Source: a bacterium
Lineage (GTDB): Bacteria > JAHJDO01
DNA length: 5,726 bases
Direction: 5' to 3'
NCBI GenBank assembly: GCA_030611945.1
Contig: JAUWOV010000094.1
Coordinates: 1-5,726, forward strand
Every line of letters starts with the position of its first letter. The first letter of the stretch is position 1. Under the pieces are notes generated by a model, which saw only the letters and a program-made list of their open reading frames with translations, did not search any database and was not told the DNA's origin. Below are positions 1,101-2,254 of this stretch, piece by piece. Both the position numbers and the translations under genes were made by a program.

Positions 1101-1240
1101 TAAATTCGAAGCACGAAGCACGAAATACGAAACAATGTTAAATGACAAAAATACAAATGACTAAAACAATGTTTAGAATTTTGAAAATTAGAATTTTGGA
1201 TTTGTTTAGGATTTCGATATTCGGATTTCGGATTTTTGTG
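1101..1240. repeat. Palindromic dispersed-type (MITE-like) repeat built from 7-mers
   Basis: The left arm is four consecutive 7-mers, CGAAGCA, CGAAGCA, CGAAATA and CGAAACA (1107-1134). The right arm (1203-1230) reads TGTTTAG, GATTTCG, ATATTCG, GATTTCG, and matches the reverse complement of the left arm at 20 of 28 positions. The centre holds a direct repeat of TTAGAATTTTG (1173-1183 and 1188-1198). Boundaries are approximate. From memory, this resembles a family of short interspersed repeats common in metagenome-derived genomes; only one copy is in the window, so dispersal cannot be shown here. It covers the first ~30 codons of the following gene. Confidence 0.65.
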
Positions 1241-2254
1241 TTCAGTGCATTAATACTGAGTGCAAGTTACAGCGCGTATTGCGCGCCAAACGTACTCAAG
1301 AACGTGAGACACCATTCTTATCCTAACAAGACGCGAATCGTTCTTGACTCAAAAGAGGCAATAACATATACAATTGAAAAAACAGGTTCAGGGGAAATTC
1401 ATATCAGACTTCATAATATAACCCCTGTAAGCAAGTTCAGCCAAATAAGACATTTCCTGTTTTTCCCTATATATCCGCATGTTACGATTAATGACCGCAT
1501 TGTTAAGAAGGTAAAATTAAAGCCTGCTTATCATTCCATAGATGCTGTTTTCAAGCTTAATGCCAGAGGCGCTTCATATAATATATTTTATCTTAAGAAT
1601 CCCGCTCGTCTTGTTCTTGACTTCATAAAAGTAAGCGATAGGCGAAAAATTAAGGTAATTGTTATAGACCCTGGTCACGGAGGAAAAGACCCGGGAGCTG
1701 TTAGAAGATATAGGAAAGGATTGATATTTTCATATAATATCAGGGAAAAGGATATTAATCTGGATATTTCAAAACGGGTAAAAAAATGTCTCAGGGGCAC
1801 TGATACAAGGGTAATTTTAACCAGAGAAAAAGACAAGTTCATCTCTTTAAAGTATAGAGTCAAACTTGCTAAAAAGTATAAAGCCGATATTTTTGTGAGT
1901 ATTCATGCAAACGCAGCATGGGACAAAAGAATGAGAGGCATAGAAACATATTATCCCAGAAGGGCGCGGAATAAGAGTATTTTTCTTAGAAAAGAGAGCA
2001 TGAAACTTGCAGAGGGTATTCATGAGAGCCTTATCAGACATATGCGCGCCAGGGACAGAGGCATAAAAAATGCAATGTTCTACGTGCTCAGAAATGCATA
2101 TATGCCGGCTGTTCTTGTTGAAGTAGGGTTTATTTCCAATTATTACGAGGCTAAATTACTAAGAAGATCTTCATATAGGAAGAAAGTGGCGCAGGTGATT
2201 GCGCAGGGTATTCTGGAATATAAGAACGAAGTTGAAAAACAGAAGGGAGAGTGA
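1142..2254 (+). CDS. Exported N-acetylmuramoyl-L-alanine amidase (AMIN + Amidase_3)
   Basis: A zinc amidase predicted to cleave the bond between N-acetylmuramic acid and L-alanine in peptidoglycan outside the cytoplasm, as AmiC-type enzymes do at the septum. A basic N-terminus and hydrophobic stretch (about residues 11-47) look like a signal peptide. An AMIN-like beta domain follows (about 51-163, ending in PARLVLDF), then Amidase_3 (about 170-362). Zinc ligands are visible as H179 (DPGHGG), E202 (REKDIN) and H255 (SIHANA), with catalytic E327 (VEVGF). A stretch of about 12 residues between DPGA and REKDIN looks longer than usual. The start is unclear: ATG 1142, 1157 and 1169 and GTG 1238 are in frame, none has a clear Shine-Dalgarno, and all but the last lie inside the palindromic repeat. 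No clean signal-peptidase site stands out (SAYCA then Pro is poor). It heads the operon. Confidence 0.93.
   Translation: MTKIQMTKTMFRILKIRILDLFRISIFGFRIFVFSALILSASYSAYCAPNVLKNVRHHSYPNKTRIVLDSKEAITYTIEKTGSGEIHIRLHNITPVSKFSQIRHFLFFPIYPHVTINDRIVKKVKLKPAYHSIDAVFKLNARGASYNIFYLKNPARLVLDFIKVSDRRKIKVIVIDPGHGGKDPGAVRRYRKGLIFSYNIREKDINLDISKRVKKCLRGTDTRVILTREKDKFISLKYRVKLAKKYKADIFVSIHANAAWDKRMRGIETYYPRRARNKSIFLRKESMKLAEGIHESLIRHMRARDRGIKNAMFYVLRNAYMPAVLVEVGFISNYYEAKLLRRSSYRKKVAQVIAQGILEYKNEVEKQKGE
2244..2249 (+). promoter_or_regulatory. Ribosome binding site of queD
   Basis: AGGGAG (2244-2249) lies 11 nt before the queD ATG, inside the last codons of the amidase gene. The spacing is slightly long, but this is the best Shine-Dalgarno match in the window. 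Confidence 0.6.

Follow-up and report, generated by a model that had tools for sequence, protein, structure and literature searches.

A 134-bp mobile repeat as the apparent source of the start codon and basic n-region of a bacterial amidase leader

Comparison within one bacterial genus indicates that the start codon and basic n-region of an N-acetylmuramoyl-L-alanine amidase are now supplied by a mobile repeat, and that the native ones have been replaced. The gene lies in the window, the whole stretch of DNA analysed here, which is one entire contig of 5,726 bp from a fragmented assembly (119 contigs). The window genome (G000) was compared with four others of the same genus (G001, G002, G003 and G004). 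In the account that we favor, with a probability of about 0.8, a MITE-like repeat entered an existing leader, the native start was lost, the n-region was replaced, and the insertion was tolerated. The sequences directly support the identity of the repeat, its in-frame fusion, the existence of repeat-free and repeat-bearing orthologues, and the recurrence of such fusions at export leaders. The features of the region are as follows.

193-657: smpB
681-1038, + strand: tmRNA gene ssrA (Rfam RF00023, 202.6 bits), immediately upstream of the repeat/amidase region
1048-1081, + strand: tmRNA intrinsic terminator, a 10-pair stem with a T run (terminator scan)
1063-1091, + strand: putative amidase promoter TTGTAT-17-TATAAT, read from the sequence and near-identical in four species
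1102-1235, + strand: mobile palindromic repeat of 134 bp, a member of a multi-copy family (genome matches, copy alignment, RNA hairpin)
1139-1141, + strand: in-frame TAA stop for the amidase, within the repeat (sequence)
1142-1235, + strand: predicted leader n-region, with repeat-derived ATG 1142, 1157 and 1169 and about 31 codons (sequence, orthologue comparison, start-site accessibility)
1229-1285, + strand: R-IFVFSALILSASYSAYCA, the hydrophobic core plus c-region, with homology to the G003 orthologue, which lacks the repeat
1142-2254, + strand: N-acetylmuramoyl-L-alanine amidase gene (weak AMIN plus Amidase_3, Pfam)

The amidase open reading frame encodes 370 aa and reads MTKIQMTKTMFRILKIRILDLFRISIFGFRIFVFSALILSASYSAYCAPN. 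Its assignment to this class is based on the Pfam domain Amidase_3 (PF01520, E=5e-56, 189.8 bits, residues 173-358), accompanied by a weak AMIN match (PF11741, E=3e-4). Next downstream are a PTPS-family and a fumarase-family gene, and then others. The tmRNA terminator sequence is conserved in G002, G003 and G004. The TTGTAT-17-TATAAT element would act as the amidase promoter, with transcription beginning close to the repeat's first base; it received no score in a consensus promoter scan, simple consensus scoring being uninformative here.

A search with positions 1000-1300 of the window returned 34 matches in its own genome, about 18 of them near full length, and the best other copy shares 92% identity across ~150 bp (E=6e-58); near-complete copies in this genome number about 20. 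When 67 near-complete copies from four genomes of the genus, the window copy among them, were aligned, they showed sharp ends (AAATTCG...CGGATTT) and a length of exactly 134 bp in 54 cases. Matches number in the tens in G002 and G004, three in G001, and one short fragment in G003. The family has the properties of a MITE: it is small, is dispersed in tens of copies per genome and lacks transposase coding capacity, its ends (AAATTCGAAG../..TTCGGATTT) pair as terminal inverted repeats, and its RNA folds into a stable stem-loop (z = -5.9 for the consensus, with no shuffle as stable, and z = -4.4 for the window copy). Filled and empty orthologous sites are found at pilin and GspK-like loci. Inspection of the repeat flanks by eye revealed no consistent target-site duplication. 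Most copies are intergenic and none is in the middle of a called gene, according to our own simple codon-score gene calls, which differ from standard annotation.

At E<=1e-12 the family occurs in 19 of 385 genomes, representing many bacterial families (e.g. L173-L187). No export-leader fusion was found among 40 repeat loci from eight genomes of other families, and such fusions therefore seem to be confined to the window genus. A literature search with the literal element sequence produced short-string matches only, in papers on unrelated subjects, and searching text for repeats of this kind in candidate phyla did not yield anything useful.

Two frames are open on the transcribed strand of the repeat, depending on the variant: frame 0 (KFEARSTKYETISNDQN..) in 17 of the 67 copies and frame 1 (NSKHEARNTKQYQMTKIQMFKTMFRILKIRI..) in 20. 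Given these counts, we no longer consider that the repeat contains a conserved mini-ORF. The amidase reads the repeat in frame 1, and its type of open frame belongs to a variant with AGA/TTG in place of TGA/TAG. The TAA at 1139-1141 is part of the TTAAATGAC spelling, which the window copy shares with the copy on contig C104 (L065).

The repeat begins 40 bp 5' of ATG 1142 and ends within the codons for FRIF, its last bases (1229-1235) coinciding with the beginning of the core and c-region segment. The codons from 1142 to 1235 are thus repeat-derived, 31 of them in frame with the gene, in agreement with the first-pass annotation, in which the repeat was described as encoding about the first 30 residues, including FRILKIRILDLFRISIFGFR. 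Because of the in-frame TAA, the amidase must start at or 3' of position 1142. With the ATG starts, 5-7 positive charges precede IFVFSALILSAS, giving a basic n-region in front of a hydrophobic core, and the leader is thus signal-peptide-like and predicted to be of the Sec type.

Translation most likely starts at ATG 1142 or ATG 1157, as judged from predicted accessibility over 30 nt (0.62 and 0.59, compared with 0.31 for ATG 1169, all computed from an assumed transcript start near 1097). A misassigned start had been suggested as an alternative; translation would then begin at GTG 1238 (or TTG 1202) and the repeat would be reduced to a 5' UTR, in agreement with its usual intergenic state. No SD-like sequence was found before 1142, 1157 or 1169, which also speaks for this alternative, or before 1238. 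We consider it very improbable, since GTG 1238 would give a leader of 16 aa that is short and free of positive charge, as noted previously, and its codon is predicted to be fully paired within a stem. Moreover, the sister genome G002 reads through from an upstream ATG, and the orthologous lipoprotein copies of G002 and G004 (see below) have no in-frame ATG 5' of the repeat ATGs. It is still harder to credit that the junction is an assembly artefact, in which the repeat joined two unrelated flanks or the short contig misplaces it. Many near-identical repeats in a fragmented assembly, and a window that is itself a whole 5.7-kb contig, would favor such an error; however, the tmRNA-terminator-amidase order and its flanks match G003, the sequences directly 5' and 3' of the repeat match G002 and G004, and G002 has the same repeat end fused to the same amidase codons.

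The amidase orthologues differ mainly in what precedes the core. The G003 gene starts with MIKRVFIFAALILSASCSAYCAPN, is free of the repeat, and encodes a complete, short signal-peptide-like leader (MIKRVFIFAALILSAS..), after which its residues are the same as in the window protein. In G002 the leader MIKMLKKLSLKHEVQMSKKQRVETPCSKISIFGFRIFVFSALILSASYSAYCAPN has the native MIK start followed by a degenerate repeat (MIKMLKKLSLKHE..KISIFGFRIFVFSALILSAS), whereas that of G004, MIKAMFRIFVSSALILSASYSAYCAPN (MIKAMFRIFVSSALILSAS), has shrunk to MIKAMFRIF, with a repeat-derived part of at most a few codons. The native start ATGATAAAA, present in G002 and G003, is gone from the window genome, where the start codon comes from the repeat, as had been proposed; this repeat-encoded N-terminus is known from one metagenome-assembled genome. 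The h- and c-regions are common to the window protein and its repeat-free orthologue, and the first ~30 residues are not shared, so that a comparison of N-termini supports the earlier interpretation for the n-region and contradicts it for the remainder of the leader. The basic n-region is now repeat-derived, although it did not need to be completed, the G003 leader being complete already. The complete leader of G003 and its equal core imply that the repeat did not create the targeting signal. Nor was the core lengthened, as it comprises 14 uncharged residues in both proteins. What had been described as a signal created by a repeat is better regarded, from these alignments, as a native n-region and start replaced by one.

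Amidase nucleotide identities (95% between G002 and G004, 90-91% between G000 and these two, and 85-87% for G003) group G002 with G004, place G000 next and leave G003 as the outgroup. The simplest history would be one insertion before the split of G000 from G002/G004, after which G000 lost its native start, the repeat interior was partly replaced in G002, and G004 discarded nearly all of the repeat. Two independent insertions at this site, in G000 and in G002, may instead have occurred, because the interior of the element differs in G002.

Besides the amidase, in-frame N-terminal repeat fusions within the genus involve an NlpC/P60 lipoprotein, a GspH-like pilin, GspK-like and GspJ pseudopilins, an exported protein (L131) and PilM, and repeat-free homologues were found for all of these except PilM. 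The pilin, GspJ, NlpC/P60 and PilM identities are supported by Pfam; Pfam gave no match for the GspK-like protein or L131, and their names come from sequence pattern. At the GspH-like pilin locus the filled site of G002 reads MANKR|repeat|..CSTRAFTAVELM (..AFTAVELM); the site is empty in G000 (MANKRMSGFTAVELM), G003 (MANKRMLGFTAVELM) and G001. The GspJ gene carries the repeat in G002 and G000 and lacks it in G003 (MKKGFTLLELL) and G004. The GspK-like gene carries it in G004 and, with a 33-bp in-frame deletion, in G002, and is repeat-free in G000 (MKIKNQNGIAL). Repeat-derived leaders of the MFKTMFRILKIRI type precede the NlpC/P60 lipoprotein in G000, G002 and G004 but not in G001. The exported protein of G002 consists of MYK, a frame-0 repeat and ..KVVLVFALIFLTTTSAFC, with its native start preceded by an SD sequence, and the repeat is absent from its orthologue in G004 and from a more distant homologue in G000. 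For PilM there is a full repeat in G004 and remnants in G000 and G003. In the GspH-like pilin of G002 and G004 (L149, L150), the residue preceding the FTAVEL cleavage motif is Ala and not Gly.

Where orthologous fused copies clearly differ in internal length, the differences are 33 bp (GspK) and 18 and 21 bp (lipoprotein), all of them multiples of three; this pattern, drawn from few indels, fits translation through the repeat. A hydrophobic export leader, as classified by a simple hydropathy rule rather than SignalP, is present in 6 of 7 fused genes versus 8 of 32 unfused downstream genes (one-sided Fisher p=0.005), although pilin-type genes are over-represented among the former and the seven loci are not fully independent biologically.

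In the proposed scenario, the 134-bp element would have entered an amidase gene already equipped with a signal peptide, a few codons 3' of its native start. The open frame of the repeat encodes basic and hydrophobic residues, with ATGs in an A-rich, weakly structured stretch, and after loss of the native start in the window genome translation would begin inside the repeat. The repeat would thereby provide a long basic n-region ahead of an unchanged native hydrophobic core and cleavage region, and the tolerance of additional residues in the n-region of a cleaved export signal could explain why the insertion survived. Which start codon is used, that the leader is translated and exported, and that the repeat is kept through tolerance and not through benefit are inferences.

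Neutral tolerance by permissive n-regions is the most likely and best-supported reason for retention of the repeat. Selection for a basic, hydrophobic frame that improves or retunes targeting, in the manner of an extended signal peptide region, is an unlikely alternative explanation. It would account for the recurrent use of one frame in fusions with several export leaders, the enrichment of fusions at such leaders, and the repeat residues kept in the lipoprotein of three species. On the other hand, repeat-free orthologues have complete short leaders, G004 has cut back its amidase extension and has no GspJ repeat where G000 and G002 have one, and the retained parts of the repeat differ among species in a way that resembles decay. 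Equally doubtful is the broader idea that one repeat variant is a mobile N-terminal module, the start codons and basic-hydrophobic frame of which are usefully reused as n-regions of Sec, lipoprotein and prepilin signals; if true, the genus would have a transposable way to rewrite export signals.

A signal-peptide start built by a repeat has a direct precedent in Yersinia, where the RU-2 (YPAL) repeat forms residues 1-30 of the predicted signal peptide of YPO1552 (Delihas 2007, PMC2759123; reviewed in PMC2229807), and YPO1552 homologues elsewhere have unrelated native signals (Delihas 2007, PMC2759123). In both cases the first ~30 residues come from a small repeat that has an open frame. RU-2 differs in being 168 bp long, enterobacterial and associated with one main exported locus, whereas the window repeat has several loci in one genus with repeat-free orthologues as controls. 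What the genus adds is this set of loci, some filled, some empty and some decaying, so that intact empty sites, degenerate ones and a secondary loss can be compared within one genus. The case is one of a mobile repeat changing where and how an exported protein begins, and it suggests that the n-region is open to wholesale replacement and the core and cleavage region are not. Start codons that are called automatically close to such repeats should be checked against relatives.

Small repeats joined in frame to host genes have been described in Rickettsia, enterobacteria and Coxiella. The Rickettsia palindromic elements are likewise about 100-150 bp long and hairpin-forming, with an open frame and in-frame host-gene fusions, but they are known from within conserved ORFs, whereas the window repeat is intercistronic or fused at gene ends, with no copy internal to called genes. 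Coxiella QMITE1 and QMITE2 (PMC5896051) are MITEs that similarly overlap ORF ends, QMITE2 providing a C-terminal extension; they differ in size and organism, and a search of the text of PMC5896051 found no signal-peptide fusion. The extended signal peptide region of autotransporters (PMC2805444) resembles the window leader in adding a long, positively charged segment N-terminal to an ordinary signal peptide. It is, however, a conserved motif of type V secretion proteins, while the window extension is repeat-derived, variable and attached to an amidase rather than an autotransporter.

Several minor observations concern the repeat and its surroundings. Within the genus (L065-L143) 47 copies are oriented along the transcription of flanking genes and 5 against it (binomial p=1e-9), and the corresponding numbers for other families are 18 and 11. 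Among 45 left-flank clusters from the same set, the nearest upstream ATG is in frame 0 in 16, frame 1 in 6 and frame 2 in 3 (p=0.004), the frame-0 ATG often lying a few codons 5' of the repeat. The last residues and stop codon of upstream genes are often repeat-derived (L119, L096, L066, L106, L072 and others). The G002 amidase and the PilM genes of G000 and G003 (L011 reverse complement, L080, L142) contain a variant form of the repeat interior, with a hairpin of the GGGTTGAAACCC type. Modification/restriction-type genes lie between ssrA and the amidase in G004 and G002 (L251, L252; N6_N4_Mtase in both, GmrSD_N in G004, DndB in G002), and none in G000 and G003. Finally, the PTPS/fumarase gene junction of the window contains a 21-bp tandem duplication, AGTGATAAGGATAAAGGATAA, at 2621-2662.
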